DNA of 64,000 bases. Origin: Gammaproteobacteria bacterium (lineage in GTDB: Bacteria; Pseudomonadota; Gammaproteobacteria; JAABTG01). Position numbers and translations under genes: made by a program. The notes beneath the pieces were generated by a model. It made no database searches. It saw only the letters and a list, made by a program, of their open reading frames with translations, and was not told the origin of the DNA. Shown here one piece after another: positions 43,055 through 63,147 of the stretch (its first letter is position 1; every line of letters starts with the position of its first letter). The stretch is from NCBI GenBank assembly GCA_034522055.1, contig JAXHLS010000002.1, positions 1,984,001 to 2,048,000 of the forward strand, read 5' to 3'.

Positions 43055-44203
43055 TCAATCCGCGGGCCCGGCGGCACGGGGGACGGGCCGGGGGTTGGGC
43101 CGGGGGTTGGGCAGGGGCAGCACGCGCACGGCCGGGGGCTCGCTGGTGAGTCGCAGGCGCTGCTCCATGGCTGGGGTCATTTCTATCTCCAGATCGGCGG
43201 TGATCACCAGGGCTTCGGTGACGCCGAGGCGCGCCGCCACCGCCGGCCAGGCGCCGGCGCCGGTTACCATCAGGGCGGTGGCGGCGGCATCGGCGGTGGT
43301 GGCGTCACCGTGTACCACCGTGGCGGAGGCGGCCCCGCGGCTGGGCCAGCCGGTGCGTGGATCGATGATGTGGTGGTAACGGGTGCCCTGCCATTCGAAG
43401 TGGCGTTCGTAGTCCCCTGACGTGAATACGCTCTCGTCCCCCGCCACCTCGAGCCGTGCCAGGGCCCCCGGGCCGCGGGGGTGGCGCACGCCGATCTGCC
43501 AGGGGCGCTCCCCCTTGCTGCCGATGGCCCGCAGGTCGCCGCCGGCGTTGATGACGGCGTCGTCGATGCCGAGTTCGCGCAGGCGCTCCATGGCACGGTC
43601 CACGCCGTAGCCTTTGGCGAAGGCCCCGAAGTCCAGGCGCACGGCGGTGTTGGTACAGCGCACCGTGGTGTCGTCCAGGTGGATATCGGTCATGGCCGGC
43701 GCCGCCGCCACCAGTTCGGCGATGGCCGCGACGGGGGGCGCCCGGGGCTCCGGCAGGTCGGCGTGGAAGCCCCACAGGGCCACCAGCCGGCCGATGGCGG
43801 GGTTGAACAGGCCGCTGCTGCGCTCCGACAGGGTGGTGCCGAGGCGTACCAGATCCACGACCCCCGGGTCACCTTCAAAGGGTTCGCCCGTGGCGCAGCG
43901 CTCGTTGAAGGTGCCGAGGGTGCCCGGGCGCCAGGCGTGCCAGGCCTCGTTCATGTAGTCGAACTCCCCGGCGAGGGCCTCGAAGGCCTGCTCCGCCAGG
44001 TCTGCCTCCACCCCCCACAGGGACACCTCGACGAGGGTGCCGAAGGTGTAGAGCTGGCGCTGATGCAGCTGGGGCGGGGCCTCGCAGCCCGCCGCCAGCA
44101 CCAGGACCAGGGGGAAGGCAAGGGCCGCCACGACGCAACGGCCGAGGATGTGGCGGCGTCCCGGGGGCCGGTTGCCCGGGCGCGGGCGGGCTGCCCCCGT
44201 CAC
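43055..44203 (-). CDS. apbE: FAD:protein FMN transferase ApbE (lipoprotein)
   Basis: A 382-residue flavin transferase. An N-terminal signal with lipobox-like LVLAAGC directs it to the membrane. Catalytic features: FGAFAKGYGVDRAM, NAGGDLRAIG, YHHIIDPRTGWPS and the metal-binding ATTADAAATALMV. It covalently attaches FMN to Thr/Ser in proteins such as NqrB/C or RnfG. Stop overlaps the tonB open frame upstream of its chosen start; start overlaps gshB by four bases. No nqr/rnf genes are visible in this window. Confidence 0.9.
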   Translation of the reverse strand: MTGAARPRPGNRPPGRRHILGRCVVAALAFPLVLVLAAGCEAPPQLHQRQLYTFGTLVEVSLWGVEADLAEQAFEALAGEFDYMNEAWHAWRPGTLGTFNERCATGEPFEGDPGVVDLVRLGTTLSERSSGLFNPAIGRLVALWGFHADLPEPRAPPVAAIAELVAAAPAMTDIHLDDTTVRCTNTAVRLDFGAFAKGYGVDRAMERLRELGIDDAVINAGGDLRAIGSKGERPWQIGVRHPRGPGALARLEVAGDESVFTSGDYERHFEWQGTRYHHIIDPRTGWPSRGAASATVVHGDATTADAAATALMVTGAGAWPAVAARLGVTEALVITADLEIEMTPAMEQRLRLTSEPPAVRVLPLPNPRPNPRPVPRAAGPAD

Positions 44204-45162
44204 GCGTCCCGGCGAGCGGTGAGGCGCTGGTGGATGGCGTCCATGAGGGTGCCGGCGATGTCCAGGCCGTAGATGGCGTCCAGCTCGCGGATGCAGGTGG
44301 GGCTCGTGACGTTGACCTCCGTGAGCCAGTCGCCAATGACGTCGAGGCCGACGAAGACGAGCCCCTTGTCCCGCAGGCAGGGGGCCACCCGGGCGCAGAT
44401 CTCGCGGTCACGCTCGGACAGGGGCACGCCCATGCCTCGCCCGCCGGCCGCCAGGTTGCCCCTGGTCTCGCCGCGGGCCGGGATGCGCGCCAGGGCATAG
44501 GGCACGGCCTCGCCGTCCACCAGCAGGATGCGCTTGTCGCCGTCGCGGATCTCGGGGATGAAGCGCTGTACCATGGTGTAACGCTGGCCGCGGTCGGTCA
44601 TGAGTTCCAGCACCACGCTGGTGTTGGGGTCGCCCTCCCGCAGCCGGAACACCGATTCGCCGCCCATGGCGTCCAGGGGTTTCAGGATCACGTCGCCGTG
44701 CTCCATGAGGAAGTCGCGGATGCGCTCGTTGTCACGGTCCACCAGGGTGGGGGTGCAGTACTCTGGGAACCAGGCGGTGTAGAGCTTCTCGTTGACGTCC
44801 CGCAGGGCCTGGGGGCGGTTCACCACCAGGGTGCCGTCGCGCTCTGCCGCCTCGAGGATATAGGTGGCGTAGATATACTCCCGGCGCACCGGCGGGTCCT
44901 TGCGCATCAGCACCACGTCCAGCTCGTACAGGGGGGCCAGGACCCGCGCCCCCAGCTCGTACCAGCCGCCGGGGTTGTCCGTGACGGTGACGGGGCGACG
45001 GCTGGCCCAGGCCACGCCGTCGCGCATCAGCAGGTCGTCGGGCTCCATGTACCACAGGCGCCAGCCGCGGGCCTGGGCCGCCAGCATCATGGCGAAGCTG
45101 GAATCCTTCTTGATGTTGATGGCCGCGATGGGGTCCATCACCACCCCTATGTCCACGGTCAT
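44200..45162 (-). CDS. gshB: Glutathione synthetase
   Basis: A 320-residue ATP-grasp ligase: IGVVMDPIAAINIKKDSSFA, MRKDPPVRREYIYATYI, KPLDAMGGESVFRLREGD and the C-terminal GLDVIGDWLTEVNVTSPTCI. It joins gamma-glutamylcysteine and glycine. It overlaps the thioredoxin-like gene by four bases, suggesting coordinated thiol metabolism in this operon. Confidence 0.95.
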   Translation of the reverse strand: MTVDIGVVMDPIAAINIKKDSSFAMMLAAQARGWRLWYMEPDDLLMRDGVAWASRRPVTVTDNPGGWYELGARVLAPLYELDVVLMRKDPPVRREYIYATYILEAAERDGTLVVNRPQALRDVNEKLYTAWFPEYCTPTLVDRDNERIRDFLMEHGDVILKPLDAMGGESVFRLREGDPNTSVVLELMTDRGQRYTMVQRFIPEIRDGDKRILLVDGEAVPYALARIPARGETRGNLAAGGRGMGVPLSERDREICARVAPCLRDKGLVFVGLDVIGDWLTEVNVTSPTCIRELDAIYGLDIAGTLMDAIHQRLTARRDA

Positions 45163-45647
45163 GGTGCGGGGTCCGGGGTGGCGAGGCGGGCCTCGGCGGT
45201 CTCGACGGCCCGCTCCAGGTAGGCCCCGTAGAAATCCACCGTGCCCAGACCCACCATGCGCCGGGCGAGTTCGCGGCCCTCGCCGTCGAGGAACAGCAGG
45301 GTGGGCACCAGGGACACGGCGTAACGTTGCGCGATGACGTCCGCCCCTCGTCGCGCGCCGTCGAAGTCGCGCACCGCGGGGCCGTCGATGGCGAGTTCCC
45401 GCAACAGCGCACGCCCGGCATAGTCGCCGCCGATGATCATGGGCACCAGGAATTCGTCGCGCACGCGGTCGCAGTAGCCGCAGTAGGAGGCGCTCATGAG
45501 GAGCACGATGGGGATGTCTCGGGCAGCGGCGCGGGCGCCGGCGTCGGCCAGGTCCCGCGTCAGCAGGGTCTCCCGGGGGTCGGCTGAGGCAGGCCCCGAG
45601 ACGAACAGGGCGAGCAGGGCGGCAAGGAAAATCGAAGTCTTGATCAT
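45159..45647 (-). CDS. Periplasmic thioredoxin-fold protein
   Basis: A 162-residue secreted protein: signal peptide ([20 protein letters not shown]), then a thioredoxin-like domain with active-site CGYC in [20 protein letters not shown] and cis-Pro region [13 protein letters not shown]. It resembles SoxW/DsbE-like thiol oxidoreductases; in a sulfur oxidiser it could reduce periplasmic Sox or cytochrome disulfides, but no sox genes are present here. The start at 45647 gives the signal peptide; the longer frame from 45719 does not. Confidence 0.8.
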
Positions 45648-45808
45648 CACGTCAAGGGGCCATGGAAAGGCTCCAGTATCCCATGCCCCCGGGGTGGTTG
45701 GCATCCCGTTCATTTGCATCGCCCGCGGGGCGACATTACTGTTTGCCCTCCCGCGGCGGCGATCCCGCCCGTCACCCCACCGTGGATCCCGAAAAGGTCG
45801 ACCATCCC

Positions 45809-46753
45809 ATGAACGTCATTCGAATCGCGACCCGCAAGAGCCCGTTGGCCCTGTGGCAGGCGGAGCACGTGGCCCAGCGACTGGTGGCGGCCCATCCCGG
45901 CCTGGCGGTGGAGTTGGTGACCATGACCACCCGCGGCGACCGCATCCTGGATGCCCCCCTCGCCAAGGTGGGGGGCAAGGGGCTGTTCGTGAAGGAACTG
46001 GAGCAGGGCATGCTGGAGTGCACGGCGGACATCGCCGTGCACTCCATGAAAGACGTGCCGGTGGAGTTTCCTGACGGTCTCCACCTGCCGGTGGTACTGG
46101 CCCGGGAGGACCCCCACGACGCCTTCGTGTCCAACCGCCTCGATCGTTTCGAGGACCTGCCGGAGGGCGCCGTGCTCGGCACCTCCAGCCTGCGCCGCCA
46201 GGTGCAGTTGCGGGCCCTGCGGCCGGACCTCCGGGTACGGGATCTGCGGGGCAACGTGAATACCCGCCTGGCCAAGCTCGATGGTGGCGACTACGACGCC
46301 ATCGTGCTGGCGAGTGCGGGTCTCATGCGGCTGGGGATGGGGGGACGCATCGCCAGCCGCCTGACCACGGAGCAGTGTCTGCCCGCCATCGGCCAGGGCA
46401 TCATCGGCATCGAATGCCGTAGCGGCGATGGCTCCGTGGAGGCCCTCATCGCCCCCCTGGCGGATCGCGACAGCACCCTGCGCATCACCGCCGAGCGGGC
46501 CCTCAACCGGCGCCTCGCGGGGGGCTGCCAGGTGCCGGTGGCGGGCCACGCGGAACTCGTGGGGGAGACCCTGCGGTTGCGGGGGTTGGTGGGGCGGCTG
46601 GATGGCAGCGAGGTGCTGCGGGACGAGGTGAGCGGTGCCCCGGAGGATGGCGAGCGGTTGGGCATCGAGCTCGCCGAGGCCCTCATCGCCGCCGGTGCCG
46701 ATGTCATCCTGCGGGAGGTCCTGGGGGAGGCCGGTGGCCACCCGGCCGCTTGA
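45809..46753 (+). CDS. hemC: Hydroxymethylbilane synthase
   Basis: A 314-residue porphobilinogen deaminase: [63 protein letters not shown] and the dipyrromethane-binding Cys in [10 protein letters not shown]. It makes the linear tetrapyrrole precursor of heme and siroheme. Start at 45809 ([12 protein letters not shown]) chosen by family match. Overlaps hemD by 20 bp. Confidence 0.95.
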
Positions 46754-47534
46754 GGGCCTGGGGGTGGTGGTGACCCGTCCGCGCCACCAGGCCGCCGGGC
46801 TGGTGGCCGAGTTGGAGCGCCGGGGTGCCCGGGTCATGGAGTATCCCCTGCTGGAGGTGGCACCACCCACGGACGAGGCCCCCGCCCGAGCCCTGGTGGA
46901 CCGTCTCGACGACTACGGCCTGGCCATCTTCATCAGCGCCAACGCGGCCCAGTGGGGGCTGGAGTTGGTGCGCCGCCGGGGGCGCAGCCTCGCCGGGTTG
47001 GAGGTGGCGGCGGTTGGTGGCGCCACCGCCCGCGCCCTGGCGGCCCAGGGCGTGCGCCCCGCCGTGGTGCCGCACCAGCGCTTCACCAGCGAGGGTCTGC
47101 TGGAGCTGCTGCCCGCCGAACGGGTGGCGGGGCGGCGCATCATCATCTTTCGCGGCGAGGGGGGGCGGGCCCTGTTGGCGGACGAATTGAGGGCACGGGG
47201 CGCGCGGGTTGACTATGCTGAGGTCTATCGCCGGGTGATGCCGCAAGACACCGACGGCGGGCGGCTGACGGCGGCCTGTGGGGCCGGGGAGGTGGACGTG
47301 CTGTTGCTCACCAGCCGCGAGGCCATGGAGAATCTGGTGGCCATCGCCGGCCCGGGGCTCGATGCCTGTACCGGGGGCGTGCGTCTGCTGGTGGTGAACG
47401 AGGACATGGTGGCGCGGGCCCGCGAATTCGGCTTCCGTCTGAGGCCCCTGGTGGCGGCGCGGCCCGACGACGCCAGCCTCGTGGCGGCCCTCGAGGGCTG
47501 GCAGGCCGCCGGGCGTGCGGAGGCTTCGCCTTGA
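46734..47534 (+). CDS. hemD: Uroporphyrinogen-III synthase
   Basis: A 266-residue HemD, identified by [57 protein letters not shown] and [13 protein letters not shown]. It closes hydroxymethylbilane into uroporphyrinogen III. GTG at 46734 ([16 protein letters not shown]) is chosen over upstream out-of-character residues; a GGAGG precedes it closely. Downstream, hemX/hemY, which follow in many Gammaproteobacteria, are absent and a PTS cluster follows instead. Confidence 0.88.
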
Positions 47535-47589
47535 AGAGATACCGGCCGTCGCCGCTTTTCCCGGCATCCACGAACACTGGGGCAGCCAT

Positions 47590-47982
47590 TTGAGCGTTGG
47601 TGTATTGCTGATCACCCATGATTGCATCGGCTCCAGCCTGGTGGCCGCGGTCACCCGCATGCTGAGCGAGCTGCCCCTGGCCCTGGACAGCCTCGACGTG
47701 CCCTGCGACAGCGACCCGGACGAGATGGCGGCCCTGTTGTGCCGGCGGCTCGAGGCCATGGATCAGGGCGATGGCGTCCTGTTGTTGACGGACATCTTCG
47801 GCGGCACCCCCAGCAACATCGCCTGCAATGCAGCGTCGGGGATCCCGGTCCGCATGGTGGCGGGGGTCAATCTGCCCATGCTGGTGCGGGTGCTCAACTA
47901 CCCGCAGCTGCCACTGGGCGAACTCGCCGAGAAGGCCCTGAGCGGGGGCAGGGAAGGCGTGTTCGCAGGGAACGAGGCCTGA
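47590..47982 (+). CDS. PTS EIIA component, mannose/sorbose type
   Basis: A 130-residue EIIA-Man fold protein. A TTG at 47590 gives LSVGVLLITHDCIGSSLVAA, which places the phosphorylatable histidine at position 10 (THD), exactly as in the family; DGVLLLTDIFGGTPSNIAC is the second signature. No EIIB/EIIC gene is nearby, so it probably acts as the terminal regulatory phosphoacceptor of the HPr/EI relay rather than in sugar uptake. It overlaps the upstream frame around hemD but not hemD itself. Confidence 0.85.
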   Translation: MSVGVLLITHDCIGSSLVAAVTRMLSELPLALDSLDVPCDSDPDEMAALLCRRLEAMDQGDGVLLLTDIFGGTPSNIACNAASGIPVRMVAGVNLPMLVRVLNYPQLPLGELAEKALSGGREGVFAGNEA

Positions 47983-47983
47983 T

Positions 47984-48259
47984 ATGGCGCAGCTGGAACG
48001 GGAGGTCACCATTGTCAACAAGCTGGGGCTCCACGCCCGGGCCGCCGCCAAGTTCGTCACCCTGGCTGGCTCGTTCGATTCCACGGTGCACCTGTGGCGG
48101 GACGGCCGCGAGGTGAACGCCAAGAGCATCATGGGGGTGATGATGCTGGCGGCGGCCAGGGGCACGGTGTTGCGCCTGGTGGTGGAGGGTCCCGATGCCG
48201 AGGAAGCCGCCGCGGCCCTCGGTGGTCTGGTGGAGAACCGCTTCGGAGAGGAGGAATGA
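47984..48259 (+). CDS. ptsH: Phosphocarrier protein HPr
   Basis: A 91-residue HPr: catalytic His17 in NKLGLHARAAAKFV and Ser48 in NAKSIMGVMMLAA, the site used by HPr kinase where that is present. It starts one base after the EIIA stop and overlaps ptsI by four bases. No hprK is present in the window. Confidence 0.94.
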   Translation: MAQLEREVTIVNKLGLHARAAAKFVTLAGSFDSTVHLWRDGREVNAKSIMGVMMLAAARGTVLRLVVEGPDAEEAAAALGGLVENRFGEEE

Positions 48260-50001
48260 GCGTCCTGCTGCGCGGCATCTGCGCCGCCAAGGGCGTGGCC
48301 ATGGGGCACCTCTACGTGGCCGATCGTTCCCAGCTCGAGGTGACGGAGTACGCGCTGGCGCCGCAACAGGTGGAGGCCGAGGTGGCCCGCCTGTTCGCGG
48401 GTGTGGAATCCGCGCGGCGCCAGCTCCAGGAGGTCAAGCGGCGCATCCCCACGGACACCTCGGCGGATATCGCCTCCTTCATCGATACCCACCTGCTGAT
48501 GCTGCAGGACTCTGCCCTCACCACCGTGCCGGCCCAGATCATCCGCGAGCGGGCGTGCAACGCCGAGTGGGCCCTCAAGGTGCAGCGCGACGACCTGGTG
48601 CGCGTCTTCGAGGCCATGGATGACGGTTATCTGCGTACCCGCAAGGACGATGTGGAGCATGTGGTGGCGCGCATTCAGCATGCGTTGCTGGGAAAGAGCG
48701 CCGGTGACCCCGTGGCGGAAGAGGATGCCCTGGCCGGCCATGTGGTATTGGCCCGCGACCTGTCGCCGGCCGAACTGGTGTTGCTCAACCACCAGGGCGT
48801 GGTGGGCATCATCACCGAATTCGGTGGGCCCACCTCCCACAGCGCCATCCTCGCCCGCAGCCTGCGCCTGCCGTCGGTGGTGGGCCTGCACCAGGCTCAT
48901 ACCTATCTGAAGGACGGCGACACGGTGATCGTGGATGGTCGCGAAGGCGTCGTCGTCGTTGACGCCGATGCCCGCATCACCAATTACTACCAGGGACTCA
49001 AGGAGAGCATCTACACCCACCACAAGCAGCGGGAACGGCTGCGGGACAAGCCCGTGGTCACCCGCGATGGCCACGCCATCCGGCTCCACGCCAACATCGA
49101 GTTGCCGGAGGACGTGGTGGCGGTGCGCCAGGTGAACGCCGCGGGGGTCGGCCTCTACCGTACCGAATTCCTGTTCATGAACCGCGCCACGCCGCCGGAC
49201 GAGGAGGAGCAGGTGGAGGCCTACGCCTCCGTGGTCCTGGCCCTCGACGGGGCACCGGTCACCATCCGCACCCTGGACGTGGGCGCGGACAAGTCCTGTG
49301 ACAGCGTGCGCGGGGGCAGCGAATCCGTGTGTATCAATCCGGCCCTCGGCCTGCGCGCGGTACGCCTGTGCCTGCGCGAGACCGGGGTCTTCCTCACCCA
49401 GCTGCGGGCCATCCTGCGGGCCGCGGCCCTGGGGGAGGTGCGTCTCATGGTGCCCATGGTGTCCACGGTGGCCGAGGTGCGCCAGGTGCGCCAGCTGGTG
49501 GAGATGGCCCACCAGTCCCTGGTACAGGACGGTCTCGAGCATGCCGCCGCCGTACCCCTCGGGGTCATGGTGGAGGTGCCGGGCACCGCTTTGGCGGCGG
49601 ATCTCTTCGCGCCCCACCTGGATTTTCTCTCCATCGGCACCAATGACCTCATCCAGTACACTCTGGCCATCGATCGCCTGGATGACGAGGTGAACTACCT
49701 TTATGACCCCTTGCACCCCGCCGTGCTACGACTCGTCGATATCATCCTGCAGGCGGGCGCGGCAGCGGGGATCCCGGTCAGCATGTGCGGCGAGATGGCG
49801 GGCAACTCCAGCTATACCCGGCTGCTGTTGGGGCTGGGCTTGCGGGAGTTCAGCGTACCCCCCAACGCCCTGCTGGAGATCAAGCAGGCCATCAACGAGA
49901 GCGATGTCCAGGATGCGGCCGCCATCGCCCGGGCATTTCTCGGCGTCAGTGACGGGGACGCCCGGCGCCAGCTCCTCGGCCGGCTCGGCATCGACGCCTG
50001 A
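48256..50001 (+). CDS. ptsI: PTS enzyme I
   Basis: A 581-residue enzyme I: phosphohistidine region GGPTSHSAILARSL (about residue 190), phosphoenolpyruvate-binding VGLYRTEFLFMNR, and C-terminal FLSIGTNDLIQYTLAIDR and SMCGEMAGN with the catalytic Cys. It takes phosphate from PEP to HPr. The start at 48256 (ATGA overlap with ptsH) gives MSVLLRGICAAKGVAMGHLY. No GAF domain, so it is PtsI- rather than PtsP-like. Confidence 0.94.
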   Translation: MSVLLRGICAAKGVAMGHLYVADRSQLEVTEYALAPQQVEAEVARLFAGVESARRQLQEVKRRIPTDTSADIASFIDTHLLMLQDSALTTVPAQIIRERACNAEWALKVQRDDLVRVFEAMDDGYLRTRKDDVEHVVARIQHALLGKSAGDPVAEEDALAGHVVLARDLSPAELVLLNHQGVVGIITEFGGPTSHSAILARSLRLPSVVGLHQAHTYLKDGDTVIVDGREGVVVVDADARITNYYQGLKESIYTHHKQRERLRDKPVVTRDGHAIRLHANIELPEDVVAVRQVNAAGVGLYRTEFLFMNRATPPDEEEQVEAYASVVLALDGAPVTIRTLDVGADKSCDSVRGGSESVCINPALGLRAVRLCLRETGVFLTQLRAILRAAALGEVRLMVPMVSTVAEVRQVRQLVEMAHQSLVQDGLEHAAAVPLGVMVEVPGTALAADLFAPHLDFLSIGTNDLIQYTLAIDRLDDEVNYLYDPLHPAVLRLVDIILQAGAAAGIPVSMCGEMAGNSSYTRLLLGLGLREFSVPPNALLEIKQAINESDVQDAAAIARAFLGVSDGDARRQLLGRLGIDA

Positions 50002-50067
50002 TCCACACCCCAGGCGCGGGGACGATATACTGGCCACCGCGCCATCGTGTCTGCCAATGGACCCCCC

Positions 50068-51429
50068 ATGACCCCCGACAACGAGATTCCCCCGGACCAG
50101 CAGCTGCTCCATGAACTGAGCGCGGCCCTCGGCAGCGAGGACCAGGAGCAGGCCGCCCAACTGCTGGCGGAGCAGCATCCCTCTGACGTCGCCGAGTTGC
50201 TGGAGTCCATCCCCTCCAGCCAGCGCGGCGAGGTATGGGAGCTGCTGGAGCCCGAGCATCGCGACAGTGTGTTCACCTACACGGAGGACACGGTCCGTTC
50301 CGAGCGCCTGCGCCAGATGGCGCCCGATGAGTTGGCGAGCGTCGCGGAAGGCCTGGAAGTGGACGATGTGGCGGACATCCTCCAGGACCTGCCGGAGTCC
50401 ATGGTGGAGGAGGTGCTGGCCTCCATGGACGAGCAGAACCGGCGCCGCCTGGAGCAGGTGCTGTCCTACGATGAGGACAGCGCCGGCGGCCTCATGAACG
50501 TGGACGTGCTCACGGTGCGCGCCGACGTGAGCCTGGAGGTGGTGGCCCGCTATCTGCGCCGCAAGGGCGAGGTGCCGGAGCATACCGACAGCCTCATGGT
50601 GGTGGACCGCGACAACGTCTATCTGGGGCGCCTGCCCCTGAGTGCCATCATCATCAACGACCCCGCCACCCCGGTGGCCCAGGTCATGAACACCGAGGCC
50701 GAGGGGATCCCCGTGGAGACCTCCGAGCGGGACGTGGCCAAGCTTTTCGAGCACCGCGATTTCGTCTCGGCCGCGGTGGTGGACGACGACGGCGTGCTTC
50801 TCGGCCGCATCACCGTGGACGATGTGCTGGACGTGATCCGGGACGAGGGGGAGCACCAGCTCATGGGCATGGCGGGCTTAAGCGAGGAGGAGGACATGTT
50901 CGCCCCCGTGATGTCCACCACCCGGCGCCGCGCCCTGTGGCTGGGGGTGAACCTGGCCACCGCCTTTCTCGCCGCCTGGGTCATCGGCCTGTTCGAGGCC
51001 ACCATCCAGGAGGTGGTGGCACTGGCGGTGCTCATGCCCATCGTGGCCAGCATGGGCGGCATCGCCGGCAGTCAGACCCTGACGGTGGTGATCCGCGGCA
51101 TGGCTCTCGGGCAGCTGGGCTCCCGCAACACCCGCTACCTGTTCACCAAGGAGGTGGCCGTGGGCGCCCTCAACGGCCTGGTGTGGGCCGTGGTGGTGGG
51201 GCTGGTGGCGGGCTGGTGGTTCGGCAACCTGGGGCTCGCCATCATCATCGCCGTGGCCATGGTGGTGAACCTGGTGGTGGCGGCCCTGTTCGGCGCCGCC
51301 ATCCCCCTGCTATTGAAGCGCTTCGACATCGACCCCGCCCTGGCGGGCGGCGTGGTGCTCACCACCGTCACCGACGTGGTGGGTTTCATGACCTTCCTTG
51401 GCTTGGGGACGGTGTTCCTGCTGGGGTGA
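50068..51429 (+). CDS. mgtE: Magnesium transporter MgtE
   Basis: A 453-residue MgtE: an N-terminal superhelical N domain (ELLESIPSSQRGEVWELLEP; EGLEVDDVADILQDLPE), two CBS domains (MNVDVLTVRADVSLEVVARY; PVETSERDVAKLFEHRD), the plug-helix region and five transmembrane helices with the pore signature ASMGGIAGSQTLTV. It lets Mg2+ enter under cytoplasmic Mg2+ gating. A GTG at 50047 would add seven residues. 66 bp after ptsI. Confidence 0.94.
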   Translation: MTPDNEIPPDQQLLHELSAALGSEDQEQAAQLLAEQHPSDVAELLESIPSSQRGEVWELLEPEHRDSVFTYTEDTVRSERLRQMAPDELASVAEGLEVDDVADILQDLPESMVEEVLASMDEQNRRRLEQVLSYDEDSAGGLMNVDVLTVRADVSLEVVARYLRRKGEVPEHTDSLMVVDRDNVYLGRLPLSAIIINDPATPVAQVMNTEAEGIPVETSERDVAKLFEHRDFVSAAVVDDDGVLLGRITVDDVLDVIRDEGEHQLMGMAGLSEEEDMFAPVMSTTRRRALWLGVNLATAFLAAWVIGLFEATIQEVVALAVLMPIVASMGGIAGSQTLTVVIRGMALGQLGSRNTRYLFTKEVAVGALNGLVWAVVVGLVAGWWFGNLGLAIIIAVAMVVNLVVAALFGAAIPLLLKRFDIDPALAGGVVLTTVTDVVGFMTFLGLGTVFLLG

Positions 51430-51439
51430 GTCGAATGGG

Positions 51440-51495
51440 TGAATGGTGAATGGTGAATGGTGAATAGTGAATAGTGAATAGTGAATGGTGAATCG
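51440..51495. repeat. Heptanucleotide tandem repeat TGAATGG/TGAATAG
   Basis: Eight head-to-tail seven-base units TGAAT(G/A)G, the last diverged to TGAATCG, begin just after the mgtE stop. No coding meaning; such heptamer arrays expand by slippage and are useful strain markers. Confidence 0.9.
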
Positions 51496-51506
51496 TGGTC
51501 GGTGTT

Positions 51507-51555
51507 GGGAAACGGGAAACGGGAAACGGGAAACGGGAAACGGGAAACGGGAAAC
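51507..51555. repeat. Heptanucleotide tandem repeat GGGAAAC
   Basis: Seven perfect units of GGGAAAC, 11 bp downstream of the TGAATGG array. Two unrelated heptamer arrays side by side in the same intergenic gap is unusual. No gene overlaps them. Confidence 0.9.
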
Positions 51556-51639
51556 GGAGAAACGAGTGCGTAGGTTGGGGGGAGGAACGAACCCCAACAT
51601 GACCATGAATCCGATGAGTATCCGTTGGGGTTCGCAAGC

Positions 51640-51925
51640 TCGTAGGTCGGTTGCTCTCGGCAACCGACATCTGCGCCCGTAAAGCGCCGAGTTTCCGTCG
51701 GCTGCCAGGAACAGCCGACCTACAGGTACACCCCCTTTTTTTCCGGCGGCACGAAGGTCGGGATTCATCCCGACAATCAAACCCGCCGTGCATACCTCGG
51801 GCCGGGCCGGAGCCACCCGCCAGCGTTCGGTGTCGGGCTGAAGCCCGACCTACATCCGTGCCAAAGGAATGGGCGGTGGGGGTGTTGTGTAGGTCAGGTT
51901 GTAGGTCGGGCTTCAGCCCGACATG
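51640..51925. repeat. Cluster of short palindromic repeats (locus 2)
   Basis: The mgtE-tal gap (51430-51942) has no gene. Besides the heptamer arrays it contains hairpins at 51646-51668 (GTCGGTTGC arms), 51697-51719 (GTCGGCTG arms), 51757-51774 (GTCGGGATTCATCCCGAC), 51832-51849 (GTCGGGCTGAAGCCCGAC) and 51905-51922 (GTCGGGCTTCAGCCCGAC). The spacer GGGCCGGGCCGGAGCCACCC also occurs at the 9.8-kb locus, so a larger composite unit was duplicated. Confidence 0.85.
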
Positions 51926-51942
51926 CGGGGCTTTGACCCCCA

Positions 51943-52911
51943 TCAATCGCAGTCGGTGCAGGCCTTGAGGGCGAAGCGTTCCAGCTTGGCGGCGTCGGCG
52001 GCGAAGTTGCGGATCCCCTCGGCCAGTTTCTCGGTGGCCATGGGGTCCTCGTTCATCTCCCAGCGGAAGGCCTTCTCGTCCAGCTCGATACGGTCGTCGC
52101 CCAGTTCCGCGGCCCGCGCAGGCTCGAGCCGGCGGGGCACGTCGCCCTCCATGGCGTCCAGCTCCGCCATCAGGTTGGGGGCGATGGTGAGGAGGTCGCA
52201 GCCTGCCAGCTCCAGGATCTCGCCACTGTTGCGGAAGCTTGCGCCCATCACCGTGGTGTCGTAGCCGTGGCGCTTGTAATAGTTGTAGATGCGGGTCACG
52301 GACTTCACGCCCGGGTCGTCCTGGGGGGCATAGCCCTCCACTCCCTCGTTCTTCTTGTACCAGTCCATGATGCGGCCCACGAAGGGGGAGATGAGGGTGA
52401 CGCCGGCATCGGCGCAGGCTACCGCCTGGGAAAAGCCGAACATCAGGGTGAGGTTGCAGTGGATGCCCTCGCGCTCGAGGAATTCGGCGGCACGGATCCC
52501 CTCCCAGGTGGAGGCGATCTTGATGAGGATGCGGTCTTTGGCGACGCCGGCGGCGTCGTAGAGGCCCAGCAGTTGCATGGCGCGGCCGATGGTGCCCTGG
52601 GTGTCGAAGGACAGGCGCGCGTCCACCTCGGTGGAAACGCGCCCGGGCACGAGCTTCAGGATCTCGCAACCGAAGTTGACCGCCAGCTTGTCCATCATCA
52701 GCCGGATCTGCTCGGCGTCGTTCTTGCCGCGGCTCTTGCCGTAGTCCACGGCGTCGTCCACCAGGTGCCGGTAACCTTCCATCTGGCCCGCCTTCAGCAG
52801 CAGGGACGGGTTGGTAGTGGCGTCGACGGGCTTGTGGGCGGCGATGGCGTCGATGTCGCCGGTGTCGGCCACCACCTGGGTCATGCCGCGTAATGTCTCG
52901 AGCTTACTCAT
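51943..52911 (-). CDS. tal: Transaldolase
   Basis: A 322-residue TalB-type transaldolase: [15 protein letters not shown], Schiff-base Lys region [34 protein letters not shown] and [11 protein letters not shown]. It moves dihydroxyacetone units between sugar phosphates in the non-oxidative pentose phosphate pathway. It is the intact end of the tal-glk-zwf-gnd block whose glk and gnd members are degraded. Ends in Cys-rich ACTDCD. Confidence 0.95.
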
Positions 52912-52939
52912 AACACCTCCTGATTGATCGGGTAGTCCT

Positions 52940-53169
52940 TCATGGTCGCAGCGCCGGGCGATGGGATTCGTTACTCCCTGTGGCTACGGCGTGACGGGCG
53001 GCGCCGAGCAGGGCCGCCCCGGGGTTCATTACCACCTTTACCGGGACCCGCGCAAGCAGCCCCGCCATTCTGCCCTTGTTGAGAAAACCCGTCATGAAGC
53101 CCGGGCCCTGCAGGTGAACAGCCCCAGCTCCGTCTTGGTGCCGCCGATGTCGCCGCCGATGACCCTCAT
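52940..53169 (-). pseudogene. glk: Glucokinase pseudogene (large internal deletion)
   Basis: On the minus strand the start overlaps the zwf stop (ATGA) and reads [18 protein letters not shown], the N-terminal phosphate-binding loop of glucokinase; the frame then hits a stop after about 25 residues. In another frame the sequence continues GFMTGFLNKGRMAGLLARVP, then VKVVMNPGAALLGAARHA, which matches the C-terminal end of glucokinase. Only about 75 of a normal 320-odd residues are represented, so roughly three quarters of the gene is deleted and the join is out of frame. It cannot encode a functional enzyme. Confidence 0.85.
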
Positions 53170-54698
53170 TCCAGGTTCTGCCAGGCGCGACCGTCCCGGG
53201 CCAGTAACGTTTCGGCGTCGGCAGGCCCCCAGCTCCCCGCCGCGTAGTTGGGGAAGTCGCGGGGTCGCAGGGCACTCCACACGTCGAGGATGGGGGCCAC
53301 CACGCCCCAGCCGGCCTCGATGCTGTCGGCGCGCTGGAACAGGGTGGCGTCGCCACGGATGGCATCGTAGAGCAGGGTCTCGTAGCCGGTGGCCGGGGGC
53401 AGGCCGAAGCGCTCCTTGTAGCAGAACTCCAGTTCGGCATTGCTGATGTGCACCACCGGCCCCGGCCGCTTGGCGCCGAAGCGCATGAGGATGGCCTCCC
53501 GGGGCTGGATGCGCAGCACCAGCTGGTTGGGTACTAGGTGATCCACCGGAGTCTTGCTGAACATCATGAAGGGCACCCGCTTGAACTGGATCAGGATCTC
53601 CGTCTGGCGCGATGCCATGCGCTTGCCGGTGCGCAGGTAGAAGGGCACGTCGGCCCAGCGCCAGTTGTCCAGCTGGAGCTTCATGGCGGCGTAGGTCTCG
53701 ATGGGGGAGTCCGCCCTCACGCCGGGTTCCTCGCGATAACCGGCCGCCTGCTCGCCCCCCGGCATGGTGCCGGGGCCGTACTGGCCGCGCACCGCCTGGG
53801 TGAGCACGTCTTCCGGGGACAGGGGCTGAATCGCCTTGAGGACATCGCCCTTGTTGTTGCGCACCGCCTCGGCGTCGAAGGACGAAGGGGGCTCCATGGC
53901 GATGAAGGAGAGCAGCTGCATCATGTGGTTGGGGACCATGTCCCGCAGCGCGCCGGCCTCCTCGTAATAGCCGGCGCGGTGGCCCACCGCGAGGTCCTCG
54001 GCCACCGTGATCTGGACGTGGTCCACGTAGCTGCGGTTCCATACCGGCTCGAAGATGGCGTTGGCAAAGCGGAATACCAGCAGGTTCTGTACCGTCTCCT
54101 TGCCCAGGTAATGGTCGATACGGTAGATCTGGGTCTCGTTGAGGGTCTCCAACAGCGCGCGGTTGAGGGCGCGGGCCGATTCCAGATCGTGGCCGAAGGG
54201 TTTCTCGATCACCACCCGGTGACGGGCCTCTTCGGTGCGGCTGACCACCCCGGCGGCGCCCAGGCGAGCCACGATGTCACCGAACAGGCTGGGGGGTGTC
54301 GCCAGATAATGGAGGTGGTTGCCGCCGGTCTGCCAGTGCTCGTCCATGGCGGTGATGTGGTCGCCGAGGCGCCCGTAGTAGTCGTCATCGTGGAAATCGC
54401 CACCGACGTAGCTGACGCGCTCCAGCAGCCAGCGCCACACGCCGTCGTCGAAATCCTCCCCCACGTGTTCGCGCACCGTCTCGTCGAGATGGGCGCGGAA
54501 GGCGTCGTCCGAGAGGTCATTGGAGGCCGTGCCGATGACCGCGAAGGCATCCTGGAGCAGGCCGTCGCGGGCGAGGTTGTAGAGGGCCGGCATCAGCTTG
54601 CGCCGAGTCAGGTCTCCGGATGCGCCGTAGATGATTACGGCGCCCGGCTGCACCGGCTCGGGGGCGGCCATGAATCCGTCGCTATGGCTGTCGCTCAT
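53166..54698 (-). CDS. zwf: Glucose-6-phosphate 1-dehydrogenase
   Basis: A 510-residue G6PD: NADP-binding [20 protein letters not shown], active-site [20 protein letters not shown] and [20 protein letters not shown]. It is full length with all key motifs and produces 6-phosphogluconolactone with NADPH. It lies between the degraded gnd-like remnant (upstream) and glk remnant (downstream), whose start overlaps its stop. An in-frame ATG at 54671 ([10 protein letters not shown]) is an alternative start. Confidence 0.95.
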
Positions 54699-54848: not shown

Positions 54849-55110
54849 CGCCGGGCTTGTTGTCCGGCCTGTTGGTTGCGCGAGGGGCGGCAGGATCGTG
54901 TGCACCCATGGGACCTCTACCGGCCGGCGATGATTTCACGAGTGGCCACGATATCACGGTCACCGACGCGAGAAACGGCACCGGTGTCGGCTCTGGATGG
55001 AGGCCCCGATCGGTCCATCATCAAATGTCAAAGTCGTCCCTCGCGTTCGGGGGTTAGGATCTCCAACCTCAGTCAACCACATACAGGCATCAAGCCTTAA
55101 GGAGTGGAAC

Positions 55111-56046
55111 ATGTCCGACAATCCCATCATCGCCATCAACATGAGCAAGGTGACCAACAGCCCCGAGTCCTACGAGACCATGAGCAAGGTGGGCCCCAAG
55201 GTGTGTATCACCACCGCCAAGCACCCCGGTTTCATGGGTTTCGAACAGCTGTTGCAGACGGGGATCCATCCCATGGGCGGGCGCTACGGCGGCGGCGCCC
55301 TGGATATGCGGGAGACCCTGAATCCCATCGGCATGTATCAGTACACGGTGTGGAAGGACGTCAAATCCCACGAGGAGATGCACTACGAGCAGTTCGACAC
55401 CATCTATGAACTCTGCGGCGCCTGCCTGGATATGGTGGTGGAGGGGCCCTGGGAACCCCTGTACGAGATCCGGGCCTCGGACCTGCCGCCGGTGCTGGCC
55501 ATGACCGATGTGCCCCATACCCTCGGTGCCAGCTTCGCCCAGCAACAGCCCGTGCCCAAGGTGGCCCTGGCCTCCCAGCGGGCGGTGGTGGTGGGGGACC
55601 ACTGGGTCATGGACGGCCACGAGCAGGCCTTCGAGGAAGGCGCAGTGGAGACCCTGAAGTGGCTGAAGGAGAACGCCCCCGGCATGATCGGCTGGATGGT
55701 GCTCAAGCAGATGGGGGTGTCGGCCATCGGTTCCTTCCAGCTCGACCCGGAAGGCGCTACCAAGGCCACCCTGGGGGCCAATCCGCCGGCCTACAATACC
55801 AACTACGGCGATCAGCCCGGGGATACGCCCCCCATCCCCGCCCAGACGCCGGCCCAGTACTTCGTCCACATGGAGTGGGAGACGCCGGAGCACGCCCACC
55901 AGGGGCTGGGCAAGGCCCTGGTGAACTACGAGTTGCTGCAGATCCATAACCAGGGCGTCCTCGCCCATGTGGACCGCGGGCCCTACTACATGATCTTCGC
56001 CCCCATGATGGAGGAGGGCACCTGGCGCAAGCACCTGGTGCGGTAA
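55111..56046 (+). CDS. sor: Sulfur oxygenase reductase
   Basis: A 311-residue SOR, an enzyme that disproportionates elemental sulfur with O2 to sulfite, thiosulfate and sulfide without cofactors. By comparison with the Acidianus enzyme, recalled from knowledge, the active site is complete: catalytic Cys32 in GPKVCITTAKHPGF, iron ligands His87 and His91 in SHEEMH and Glu115 in GPWEPLYEI, and the accessory CxxC at 102-105 (CGAC). The protein has the family beginning MSDNPIIAINMSK and ends MEEGTWRKHLVR. AAGGAG precedes the ATG by six bases. Bacterial SORs are known from Thioalkalivibrio paradoxus, Halothiobacillus-like and Acidithiobacillus relatives. It is a cytoplasmic 24-mer in known cases. 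No operon partner; next genes are a remnant and a PhnD-like transporter. Confidence 0.95.
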   Translation: MSDNPIIAINMSKVTNSPESYETMSKVGPKVCITTAKHPGFMGFEQLLQTGIHPMGGRYGGGALDMRETLNPIGMYQYTVWKDVKSHEEMHYEQFDTIYELCGACLDMVVEGPWEPLYEIRASDLPPVLAMTDVPHTLGASFAQQQPVPKVALASQRAVVVGDHWVMDGHEQAFEEGAVETLKWLKENAPGMIGWMVLKQMGVSAIGSFQLDPEGATKATLGANPPAYNTNYGDQPGDTPPIPAQTPAQYFVHMEWETPEHAHQGLGKALVNYELLQIHNQGVLAHVDRGPYYMIFAPMMEEGTWRKHLVR

Positions 56047-56416: not shown

Positions 56417-57286
56417 ATGATGCACAGATATGGTTCGGGGATCTTCGGTGCGGCGCTGTTGTGGTTGGCGGCAGGTGCCGTGGCGGCGGCGGACACCTTT
56501 GTCTTCACGGCCATTCCGGACCAGGACGAGTCGCGGCTGCGGGAGCGCTTCGAGCAAGTGGCGGAGTATCTCGAGGAACGGCTGGACGTGGAGGTGCGCT
56601 ACGTACCGGTGAAGTCCTATGCCGCCGCGGTCACCGCCTTTCGCAACGACCAGGTGCAGCTCGCCTGGTTCGGCGGTCTGTCGGGGGTCCGTGCCCGCCA
56701 GAGCGTCCCCGGCTCCGAGGCCATCGCCCAGGGGGTGGAGGACCAGGCCTTCGTCACCTATTTCATCGCCAACACCGCCACGGGCCTTGCCTACGGTCAG
56801 GACTTTCCAAAGGACATCTCGGGCCTGACCTTCACCTTCGGCTCCAAGGGCTCCACCTCCGGACGGCTGATGCCCGAATACTACATTCGGGAGGCCTTCG
56901 GCGCGGCGCCCCAGGAGGTCTTCGCGCGGGTGGGCTTCAGTGGCGACCACTCCCGCACTATCGCCCTGGTGCAGTCCGGCGCCTTCCAGGTCGGCGCCCT
57001 GAACTTCAAGGTGTGGGAGAAGGAAAGCGCGCTGGGGCGTATCGACCCCGCCAAGGTGAGCGTGATCTGGCAGACGCCCGCCTACCCGGACTACCAGTGG
57101 AGCATCCGCGGCGACGTGGACGAGCGCTTCGGTGCCGGCTTCGCCGAGGGCGTGCGCGAGGCCCTGCTGGCAATCCGTGAGCCCGGGCTGTTGGAATCCT
57201 TTCCCCGCAGCGGCTTCATTCCGGCCGGGAACGCCGATTACGAGCCCATCGAGAGGACCGCGAAGGACATCGGTCTGATCGATTGA
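56417..57286 (+). CDS. PhnD-like ABC substrate-binding protein (putative selenate/oxyanion)
   Basis: A 289-residue periplasmic binding protein: signal peptide (FGAALLWLAAGAVAAADT) and the PhnD-type signature RFEQVAEYLEERLDVEVRYV, AVTAFRNDQVQLAWFGGLSG and TFGSKGSTSGRLMPEYYIRE. The SGRLMPEYY region and FGGLSGVRAR are found in the subgroup annotated as putative selenate transporters near selenium genes rather than classic phosphonate-binding proteins; no sel or phn enzyme genes are here, so the substrate is uncertain (oxyanion of S, Se or P). A tandem ATG gives 56420 as an alternative start. First gene of a three-gene operon. Confidence 0.82.
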   Translation: MMHRYGSGIFGAALLWLAAGAVAAADTFVFTAIPDQDESRLRERFEQVAEYLEERLDVEVRYVPVKSYAAAVTAFRNDQVQLAWFGGLSGVRARQSVPGSEAIAQGVEDQAFVTYFIANTATGLAYGQDFPKDISGLTFTFGSKGSTSGRLMPEYYIREAFGAAPQEVFARVGFSGDHSRTIALVQSGAFQVGALNFKVWEKESALGRIDPAKVSVIWQTPAYPDYQWSIRGDVDERFGAGFAEGVREALLAIREPGLLESFPRSGFIPAGNADYEPIERTAKDIGLID

Positions 57287-57942
57287 GCCCGCGCTTCGAG
57301 CTGCGCGGGGCCAGCGTCCATTACCAGGGCAGCCCCGCCCTCCAGGACATCACCCTCTCCATCGAGCCGGGTGAGCGGATCGCCCTGGTGGGGCGCAGCG
57401 GCGCCGGCAAGTCCACCCTGCTGCGCCTGCTCTATGAAACGGCCCGGGCCGACACGGCCCTGGTGGCCCAGGACCTCGCCCTGGTGCGCACCCTGTCCGT
57501 ATTTCACAACGTCTACATGGCGCGGCTGCGCCACCACGGCGCCTTCTACAACCTGGTGAACCTGCTACGCCCCATGGCCGGGGAGGTGGCGTCGGTGCGT
57601 CCCGTGCTGCGGCGCCTCGACCTCGAGGACAAGCTCTTCGAGCCGGCGGGGCAGTTGTCGGGTGGCCAGCAGCAGCGCACGGCCGTCGCCCGCGCCCTTC
57701 ACCAGGGCAGTCCCGTGGTGATGGCGGACGAGCCGGTTTCCGCGGTGGACGAGCACCAGTCGAGACGGGTCCTGGACGCCATCGTCGAGGCCAGCCAGAC
57801 CGTGGTGCTGGCCATGCATGACATCACCCTGGCCCTGGCCTATGCCGAGCGCATCATCGGCCTGGAGGCCGGCCGCATCACCCTGGACCAGCCCACGGCG
57901 GGCATGAGGCCCTCGGACCTCGATGGCCTCTACGGCTCCTGA
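57283..57942 (+). CDS. PhnC-like ABC transporter ATPase
   Basis: A 219-residue ATPase: Walker A GRSGAGKST, signature QLSGGQQQRTAVARAL, Walker B VVMADEPVSAVD and switch His in LAMHDITLALAYAER. The region TLSVFHNVYMARLRHHGAFY is typical of the PhnC type. The start is a TTG that overlaps the upstream stop (TTGA). It overlaps the permease gene by 20 bp. Confidence 0.88.
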   Translation: MSPRFELRGASVHYQGSPALQDITLSIEPGERIALVGRSGAGKSTLLRLLYETARADTALVAQDLALVRTLSVFHNVYMARLRHHGAFYNLVNLLRPMAGEVASVRPVLRRLDLEDKLFEPAGQLSGGQQQRTAVARALHQGSPVVMADEPVSAVDEHQSRRVLDAIVEASQTVVLAMHDITLALAYAERIIGLEAGRITLDQPTAGMRPSDLDGLYGS

Positions 57943-59446
57943 GGAGGGCGCGCCGCTCCGCTCGCCGCCGTCGCCGGTGCGCCGCGCCAGCGTGGTGTTC
58001 CTGGTCATCGGCCTCGCCTGCCTGGCGGTGGCCGACATCGAGGTCTCGACCCTCGACCCCTGGACCGAGCTGGGGCGCCTGGCCTGGGGTTTCGTCACCC
58101 CCGATTTCACCGCCACCGAGTACCTGTTCGAGGCCCTGCTCTACACCGTCGCCTTCGCCCTGCTCGGCGTGGTCCTGGGCAACTTTCTGGGCTTCCTGCT
58201 GGCCCTGGTGTTCGACTGGCGCGTGGTGCGGGTGGGGTGTGCCTTCGTGCGTGCCGTGCACGAGCTGTTCTGGGCCCTGATCTTCCTGCAGGTCTTCGGC
58301 CTCACGCCGTGGACCGGGGTGCTGGCCATCGCCATCCCCTACGCCGGCATCATCGCCAAGGTCTACGCCGAGATCCTGGAGGAGGCGGACCCGGCGCCCG
58401 CGCGCCAGCTGCCCACGGGCACCGGCAGGGTGTCCACCTTCCTCTACGCCCGCATGCCCGACGTGTTGGTGCATTTTCGCACCTACAGCCTGTACCGCCT
58501 GGAATGCGGCCTGCGCTCAAGTGCCGTGCTCGGCTTCGTCGGCCTGCCCACCCTGGGTTTCCATCTGGAGTCGGCCTTCTCCCAGGGGCATTACTCCGAG
58601 GTGGCGGCCCTGCTGATGCTGTTCTGGCTCATCATCGCCACCATCCGGCAATGGCTGCGGCGGCGCCTGCTGCCGATCTACCTGGTGGCGGCGGTGTGGG
58701 TGCTGCCCGAGGGCATGCCCATCTCCATGGCCGGCCTGTGGCGCTTCCTCTCCCACGACATCGTGCCCCATCCCCTGCGCATCGCGGAGCAGTTGGACGC
58801 CCAGGTGCTGGGAGAGACCTGGCACTGGTTTGCCAATCTGGTCATGAGCCAGGCCCTGCCGGGGATCGTCAACACCGTGGTCCTCACCATGGTGGCCCTG
58901 GTGGCTACCGGGCTCTTGACCCTGGCCCTCTTTCCCCTGGTGTCGACGCGTTTCGGCGGGCCCTGGCGGCGGCGCGGTGGCCACCTGCTGCTGGTGGTCA
59001 TGCGCTCCACCCCCGAGTATGTGCTGGCCTACATCGGCCTGCAGCTGTGGGGGCCTTCCATGTTGCCGGCCATCATCGCCCTGTCCCTGCACAACGGCGC
59101 CATCATCGGCCATCTCATGGGCCGCTTCTCCAGCGCCCTGCCCGCCTTGCCGGGCCGGTTGCGGGTCTTCGACCGTTACTTCTACGAGGTGCTGCCCCAG
59201 GTCTACCGGCAGTTCCTCGCCTTCCTGTTCTACCGCTGGGAAGTGATCATGCGCGAGACCGCCATCCTCGGCATGCTCGGCATCTACACCCTGGGCTTCT
59301 ACGTGGACAGCGCCTTCGCCGATCTGCGTTTCGACCGGGCCCTGGTGCTGATCCTCATCACCGCTCTGCTCAACATCGCCGTGGACGTCATCTCCCGCCG
59401 GGTGCGGGCACGGCTGCGGCTGCGGACATCTTTCGACGCCGCCTGA
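57923..59446 (+). CDS. PhnE-like ABC permease with two fused permease domains
   Basis: A 507-residue membrane protein with about twelve hydrophobic segments. Two copies of the BPD_transp_1 domain are seen: the first around IPYAGIIAKVYAEILEEADP and RLECGLRSSAVLGFVGLPTL, the second around ALSLHNGAIIGHLMGRFSSA and RWEVIMRETAILGMLGIYTL. Each has the EAA-like loop with conserved R-x-x-A-I/V-L-G. PhnE is usually a single-domain protein acting as a dimer; fused permeases occur in the selenate-type subgroup. C-terminus is basic. Confidence 0.87.
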   Translation: MASTAPEEGAPLRSPPSPVRRASVVFLVIGLACLAVADIEVSTLDPWTELGRLAWGFVTPDFTATEYLFEALLYTVAFALLGVVLGNFLGFLLALVFDWRVVRVGCAFVRAVHELFWALIFLQVFGLTPWTGVLAIAIPYAGIIAKVYAEILEEADPAPARQLPTGTGRVSTFLYARMPDVLVHFRTYSLYRLECGLRSSAVLGFVGLPTLGFHLESAFSQGHYSEVAALLMLFWLIIATIRQWLRRRLLPIYLVAAVWVLPEGMPISMAGLWRFLSHDIVPHPLRIAEQLDAQVLGETWHWFANLVMSQALPGIVNTVVLTMVALVATGLLTLALFPLVSTRFGGPWRRRGGHLLLVVMRSTPEYVLAYIGLQLWGPSMLPAIIALSLHNGAIIGHLMGRFSSALPALPGRLRVFDRYFYEVLPQVYRQFLAFLFYRWEVIMRETAILGMLGIYTLGFYVDSAFADLRFDRALVLILITALLNIAVDVISRRVRARLRLRTSFDAA

Positions 59447-61812: not shown

Positions 61813-63147
61813 ATGTCGCTAACAACTCCGGAAAAGATCAGGACGCTGCAGAGGAAGCTCTACGTCAAGGCCAAGCAAGAGCCGGCGTTTCGCTTCTACG
61901 CCTTGTATGACGAGGTCTATCGGGCAGACACTCTCGGTCACGCCTATGATCGTGTCAGGTCCAATCGGGGCGCGCCAGGAATCGATGGTGTGACCTGTGA
62001 GGCCATCGAGGCGGGGGTCGGAAGAGACGCCTACTTGGCGGAATTGCAACGGGAACTGGAGCAGAAGACGTACGGCGCGGACGGCGTGCGTCGGGTCTGG
62101 ATACCCAAGCCGGATGGCAGTGAGCGCCCATTGGGGATCCCCACAATCCGGGATCGGATCGTACAGATGGCGCTCAAGCTGGTGGTGGAGCCGATCTTCG
62201 AGGCTGATTTCTGCGAGCACTCCTATGGATTTCGCCCGCAGCGCTCGGCCCATGATGCGGTGAAGGCCGTCACCGACGGTCTGTTTCAGGGAAAGACCCA
62301 AATCATCGATGCGGATCTATCGAAGTATTTCGATACGATCCCGCACGCCAAGCTCATGGCCGTGGTTGCCGAGCGCCTTGCCGATGGGGGCGTCCTCGCC
62401 CTCATTCAGCAATGGCTCAAGGCCCCGGTCATCGAAGAGGATGGGCGAGGCAAGCAACGCCCGAGTGGCGGTAAAGGGAATCGGAAAGGGACGCCGCAAG
62501 GCGGGGTTGTTTCCCCGCTGCTGGCCAATCTTTATCTACATCTGCTGGACCGGATTTGGGAACGGCACGACTTGGAACGGCGGTTAGGGGCGCGCCTCGT
62601 GCGTTACGCTGACGATGCCGTGATTCTGTGTCGTGGGGACACCGCGCCGGCCATGGCGGTGCTTGAGACGGTGCTGACACGCCTGGAGTTGACGCTCAAC
62701 CGGGAGAAAACCCACGTGGTCGATGCCCGCCGACAGGCGTTCGACTTTCTTGGCTTCAGCATCAAATGGGCACGCAGCCGACGAACCGGCAACGGCTACC
62801 CTCACGTTGAGCCGAGCCGCCGCGCCGAACGAAGGATCAAGGCGCGCATCAAGGAACTCACCGCGCGGCGCCGCACCCCGGTGCCGATGCCGCGTATGAT
62901 CACGGAAGTCAACCAAGTGCTACGCGGCTGGTCGGGCTACTTCCACCACGGCAACTGCACCAAGGCTTTCGGACGCGTCCGGTGGTTCACTGAGGAACGC
63001 GTGCGTACCCAACTGCGGCGGCGTCACAAAGTGCGCACTCGCACGCGCGGTTACGAACGCTTTCCCTACGCCCACCTCCACGACGCCCTTGGATTACTCA
63101 AGCTATCCCACAAAGCAGGCTGGCGCTCAGCGCATGCCTTGGCGTGA
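61813..63147 (+). CDS. ltrA: Group II intron reverse transcriptase/maturase
   Basis: A 444-residue intron-encoded protein. Reverse transcriptase blocks: GAPGIDGVTCEAI, PLGIPTIRDRIVQMALKLVV, SYGFRPQRSAHDAVKAV, DADLSKYFDTIPH, GTPQGGVVSPLLANLYLH and active-site RYADDAVILCRG (YADD at 265-268). The maturase X/GIIM part follows (FDFLGFSIKWARSR; VNQVLRGWSGYFHHGN). There is no HNH endonuclease domain at the C-terminus, so mobility would rely on nicked or single-stranded targets. The ORF is full length and intact. Confidence 0.94.
   Translation: MSLTTPEKIRTLQRKLYVKAKQEPAFRFYALYDEVYRADTLGHAYDRVRSNRGAPGIDGVTCEAIEAGVGRDAYLAELQRELEQKTYGADGVRRVWIPKPDGSERPLGIPTIRDRIVQMALKLVVEPIFEADFCEHSYGFRPQRSAHDAVKAVTDGLFQGKTQIIDADLSKYFDTIPHAKLMAVVAERLADGGVLALIQQWLKAPVIEEDGRGKQRPSGGKGNRKGTPQGGVVSPLLANLYLHLLDRIWERHDLERRLGARLVRYADDAVILCRGDTAPAMAVLETVLTRLELTLNREKTHVVDARRQAFDFLGFSIKWARSRRTGNGYPHVEPSRRAERRIKARIKELTARRRTPVPMPRMITEVNQVLRGWSGYFHHGNCTKAFGRVRWFTEERVRTQLRRRHKVRTRTRGYERFPYAHLHDALGLLKLSHKAGWRSAHALA

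Follow-up and report, generated by a model that had tools for sequence, protein, structure and literature searches.

Characterised bacterial sulfur oxygenase reductases (SORs) are known from Halothiobacillus, Aquifex, Sulfobacillus, and Thioalkalivibrio (PMC7398979). The SOR of Thioalkalivibrio ALMg11 has been published (PMC6382920), and the same source, where it cites Ruhl 2017, describes the enzyme of T. paradoxus (TpSOR, PDB 6qpa) as atypically low in reductase activity. In the Sulfurisphaera SOR, mutants of the iron ligands and of Cys31 were inactive, and C101A and C104A resulted in a ~10-fold loss (PMC7398979).

Here, we analyzed a sor gene in a 64,000-nucleotide stretch of gammaproteobacterial DNA (hereafter, the window) and compared it with the same locus in a genome of the same genus, L028 (JAABTG010000041.1, "Thiotrichales bacterium S21.Bin127"). 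The window SOR shares family, length, and active-site set with TpSOR at 75% identity, and is closer to the ALMg11 SOR (86.5%), which falls in the same four-member clade. However, the Thioalkalivibrio SORs belong to another genus and another locus, and the activity of the window enzyme is predicted from homology. The Acidianus ambivalens SOR (PDB 6qne/2cb2) shares the fold family and the six key residues, but it is only about 43% identical and lies in a separate clade.

Identity and active site of the SOR

The reading frame was found to be clean, as the initial annotation had claimed, with 311 codons running without interruption from the ATG at 55111 to the stop codon at 56044–56046 (Table 1). 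The Pfam profile PF07682 (SOR) matched the protein with 471 bits (E 1.5e-141, cut-off 25) over profile positions 2–300 of 300. The top PDB match was 6qpa_A (568 bits, residues 2–309, ~75% identity), compared to about 250 bits for archaeal SOR structures, and the homology search thus placed the protein inside the SOR family. Alignment showed the iron ligands H87, H91, and E115 (H86, H90, and E114 in archaeal numbering) and the pocket cysteines C32, C102, and C105 (C31, C101, and C104, C31 being the essential persulfide cysteine), so that the residues needed for SOR activity were all there, as had been stated. This CHHECC set aligned in all full-length SORs compared, including the archaeal ones; the residues are therefore family markers and indicate nothing specific to this gene.

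A genome search showed sor to be single-copy, and neither a Tat nor a Sec signal was visible at the N-terminus of its product. The strong ribosome binding site noted before was also observed, with a six-base spacer to the ATG; its counterpart in L028 is GAGGAG. No sigma-70-like promoter was found upstream of sor. Judged by its sequence, the window gene is a SOR, a known enzyme that had been correctly identified, and of an already-known kind.

Table 1. Features of the sor region (window coordinates)
Feature	Position	Strand	Basis
Adjacent heptamer arrays, GAATGGT x9 and GGGAAAC x8, just downstream of mgtE	51433..51564		
tal, transaldolase, intact, order shared with L028	51943..52911	-	Pfam and synteny
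glk remnant, internally deleted glucokinase; the first 20 and the last 46 residues remain, each in its own frame	52979..53169	-	
zwf, glucose-6-phosphate dehydrogenase, 510 aa, intact	53166..54698	-	Pfam
gnd (6-phosphogluconate dehydrogenase), probable C-terminal remnant, 45 aa	54714..54848	-	
Ribosome binding site AAGGAG	55099..55104	+	Sequence
sor, sulfur oxygenase reductase, 311 aa, intact	55111..56046	+	Pfam and PDB matches, alignment
MBL-fold hydrolase (exported), C-terminal remnant, ~64 of 313 aa	56089..56286	+	Comparison with intact gene of L028
ABC transporter, intact: phosphonate-type binding protein, ATPase, two-part permease	56417..59446	+	Pfam
Group II intron reverse transcriptase/maturase, intact	61813..63147		

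Phylogeny and distribution

In a maximum-likelihood tree of 65 SORs, with archaea represented by two sequences, the window SOR grouped with those of L028, L029 (a Thioalkalivibrio MAG), and L030 (Thioalkalivibrio ALMg11) at a support of 97/96. This clade was nested in a large, mainly gamma- and betaproteobacterial clade, which also includes Acidithiobacillus, Halothiobacillus, Thiohalobacter, and TpSOR and is well separated from the archaeal and Bacillota SORs. The placement, which the initial annotation had left to a phylogeny, is therefore with ALMg11 and apart from the archaea.

A SOR match was found in 12 of the 369 sampled genomes of the class, 11 of them above the family cut-off, and a scan of species genomes yielded 62 SOR loci, nearly all bacterial. 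SOR had been described as rare in Bacteria, with few proteobacterial forms described; it is indeed uncommon, but the 62 loci and the several characterised bacterial enzymes do not agree with the remainder of that statement.

Two further SOR types were observed. The congeneric genome has a second SOR (L065 = L008/L017, G001:C277) that is strongly diverged, with 61% identity to the window SOR, a very long branch, an altered C-terminus, and intact active-site residues. Within the class, a second, distant SOR-family group (L006, L007, L013, and L014) shows ~33% identity to the window SOR and has kept the active-site residues; the tested member was closest to PDB 9rdn.

The same locus in the congeneric genome

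Positions 1–8778 of L028 matched window positions 43951–53117, followed in L028 by SOR and then the MBL-fold gene. The two loci thus have a common gene order from ptsI to tal, glk, SOR, and MBL, and the two SOR proteins are 98% identical. However, L028 has intact copies of glk and of the MBL-fold gene, whereas both are remnants in the window, and zwf does not lie between glk and SOR in L028, whereas zwf and the gnd-like fragment occupy this position in the window. Upstream of sor, similarity to L028 ended at the start codon, indicating that the promoter side was rearranged in one of the lineages.

Between the window and L028, dS was 0.30 for SOR, compared to 0.33 for tal, 0.25 for mgtE, and 0.37 for ptsI, while dN was 0.0098 for SOR and 0.033–0.046 for the other three. 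The dN/dS of SOR (~0.03) was the lowest among these four genes. Of 56 changed codons, six resulted in amino-acid differences, none of which was in the active site. SOR is more strongly constrained than the neighbouring genes compared and is under strong purifying selection. Its dS to L029 and ALMg11 was about 1.3, which is saturated.

The comparison of GC content and codon use that the initial annotation had suggested showed sor to match its neighbours: its GC3 was 0.907, most neighbours ranged from 0.87 to 0.93, and its codon use was native. The GC3 of the group II intron reverse transcriptase was 0.727, lower than that of sor. The common gene order with L028, together with a dS like that of the neighbours, indicates that sor already stood here when the genus's two sequenced species diverged.

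Decay of the neighbouring genes

Truncated genes flank sor, as had been claimed, with the remnants of glk and the MBL-fold gene and the probable gnd tail (Table 1). The only matches of the gnd-like fragment were weak ones to the C-termini of gnd (E 0.006–0.02), and Pfam did not recognise it. A family search of the window's genome found 6PGDH-like proteins elsewhere, none above the cut-off of that gnd subfamily, and no further copy of glk or of the MBL-fold gene was found elsewhere in this genome. The claim that sor is also flanked by repeats held up only in a loose sense: the tandem arrays nearest to sor are the heptamers about 3.5 kb away, but no repeat pair bracketing sor was found.

The sugar-oxidation cluster of the window is eroding, with glk broken, a probable gnd tail, and zwf intact. 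In the congeneric genome, zwf is found at another position, with only 46% identity to the window zwf; the zwf of G002 is 60% identical. The ABC transporter downstream of the MBL remnant is not part of the SOR system. A functional pair of SOR and the MBL-fold protein was considered and rejected, as L028 alone has the complete MBL-fold gene next to SOR, and the window and L029 have C-terminal remnants of it in this position; since it is beside SOR at no other locus, we claim no general partner.

Flavoprotein neighbours of SOR genes

Among the SOR loci examined, about 20 (including L033, L034, L050, and L058) have a conserved Pyr_redox_2 flavoprotein, mostly directly beside SOR and 62–73% identical to the Thiomonas one. 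These loci often contain a second conserved ORF of ~300 aa, of which one representative was scanned and gave no Pfam match. This ORF may be DUF1641-like, which is a guess; none of the papers searched mentioned SOR together with DUF1641. The Pyr_redox_2 neighbour was absent from the window, L028, L029, and L030 loci, and no close copy was found elsewhere in the window's genome, where the best match was 29%. A speculative reading, which we consider unlikely, is that the window, L028, L029, and ALMg11 enzymes make up a haloalkaliphile-associated lineage of stand-alone SORs, which would have lost the usual flavoprotein neighbour and would act mainly as cytoplasmic oxygenases parallel to Sox and reverse Dsr.

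SORs with Tat-type signals

One SOR clade carries canonical Tat-type N-terminal signals, for example, ERRKFLKMTAMAAGG and MNRRNFMKTAAMAAG, together with the full CHHECC active site. Its members are L004/L018 (G003), L005/L019 = L084 (G004), L076, L077, L078, L080, and L089, and both G003 and G004 belong to the window's own family. Tat motifs seen in L071, L074, L082, and L086 were rejected, as they are most likely in-frame Shine-Dalgarno sequences (AGGAGG) and not signals. As predicted from these N-termini, the signals imply that SORs of this clade would be exported. To our knowledge, characterised SORs are cytoplasmic, and the papers searched gave no obvious report of Tat-signal SORs.

Discussion

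We propose that the window sor encodes a functional cytoplasmic SOR of the proteobacterial type, which was kept while its neighbours decayed. Together with the presence of sor at the locus before the species split, this reading has a probability of about 90%, in view of the family, active-site residues, synteny, divergence, and gene context observed here. Points against it are the upstream region, which was rearranged in one lineage and yielded no sigma-70-like promoter, and the missing Pyr_redox_2 neighbour.

The initial annotation had instead taken the surroundings of sor as a sign of recent acquisition or relocation into a decaying locus. The truncated genes beside sor and the breakpoints relative to L028 close to both of its ends are consistent with such an event, as is the distribution within the family, where G003 and G004 have a different SOR type and G002 has none. 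However, the site is occupied in the close relative, in the same gene order and with a dS of SOR equal to that of its neighbours, and synonymous divergence from the nearest relatives beyond it is already saturated. GC3 and codon use are native, flanking direct repeats are absent, and no SOR was found in the plasmid records or viral contigs searched. We therefore consider a recent horizontal arrival or relocation very improbable. These plasmid and viral searches and the lack of flanking repeats also led us to reject cargo of a mobile element. An earlier entry of SOR into the genus could have occurred; as the SORs of G003 and G004 are different and G002 lacks one, the gene would have entered the genus sometime after them or apart from them.

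The decayed neighbours, the rearranged upstream region, and the lack of a consensus promoter might also be taken to mean that sor is on its way out, with a frame still open but unexpressed and due to follow the adjacent genes. A dN/dS below those of tal, mgtE, and ptsI argues against this, as does the good ribosome binding site that sor has in either species, so that we give such a fate hardly any weight. A gene retained by strong purifying selection, with glk, the MBL-fold gene, and probably gnd decaying nearby, would be the better description.

For assembly, chemistry, and physiological role, we infer from homologous enzymes what the window SOR would do. It would be a cytoplasmic enzyme of the Thioalkalivibrio/Halothiobacillus/Acidithiobacillus type and would assemble as a hollow 24-subunit shell, given that 6qpa is listed with 24 chains. 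Zero-valent sulfur or polysulfide would be held as a persulfide on Cys32, and a mononuclear iron on His87, His91, and Glu115 would react with O2 to give sulfite and some sulfide, after which thiosulfate would arise chemically. SoxB and DsrA were both found in the window's genome, the latter next to a second dsr-like hit, suggesting that SOR gives this sulfur oxidiser one more way to handle zero-valent sulfur. Through it, cytoplasmic sulfur would probably be cleared with O2 and without energy conservation.

The window SOR may also act chiefly as an oxygenase on sulfur and show little reductase activity, like the T. paradoxus enzyme. The low reductase activity that PMC6382920 reports, in its citation of earlier work, for a protein ~75% identical to the window SOR points in this direction, and so does the nearest kinship with Thioalkalivibrio. 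However, TpSOR lies with a Halothiobacillus MAG SOR in another sub-branch than the window, L029, and ALMg11 SORs. We know of no sequence feature that makes reductase activity low in SORs, and we regard a chiefly oxygenase function as possible, with the odds somewhat against it.

With the window sor, a lineage of sulfur oxidisers that carries Sox and Dsr gains a well-supported SOR, and the gene decay around it indicates that such surroundings need not signal recent arrival. Of wider importance than the window gene would be the SOR group with predicted Tat-type signals, as it implies that SOR chemistry may take place outside the cytoplasm.
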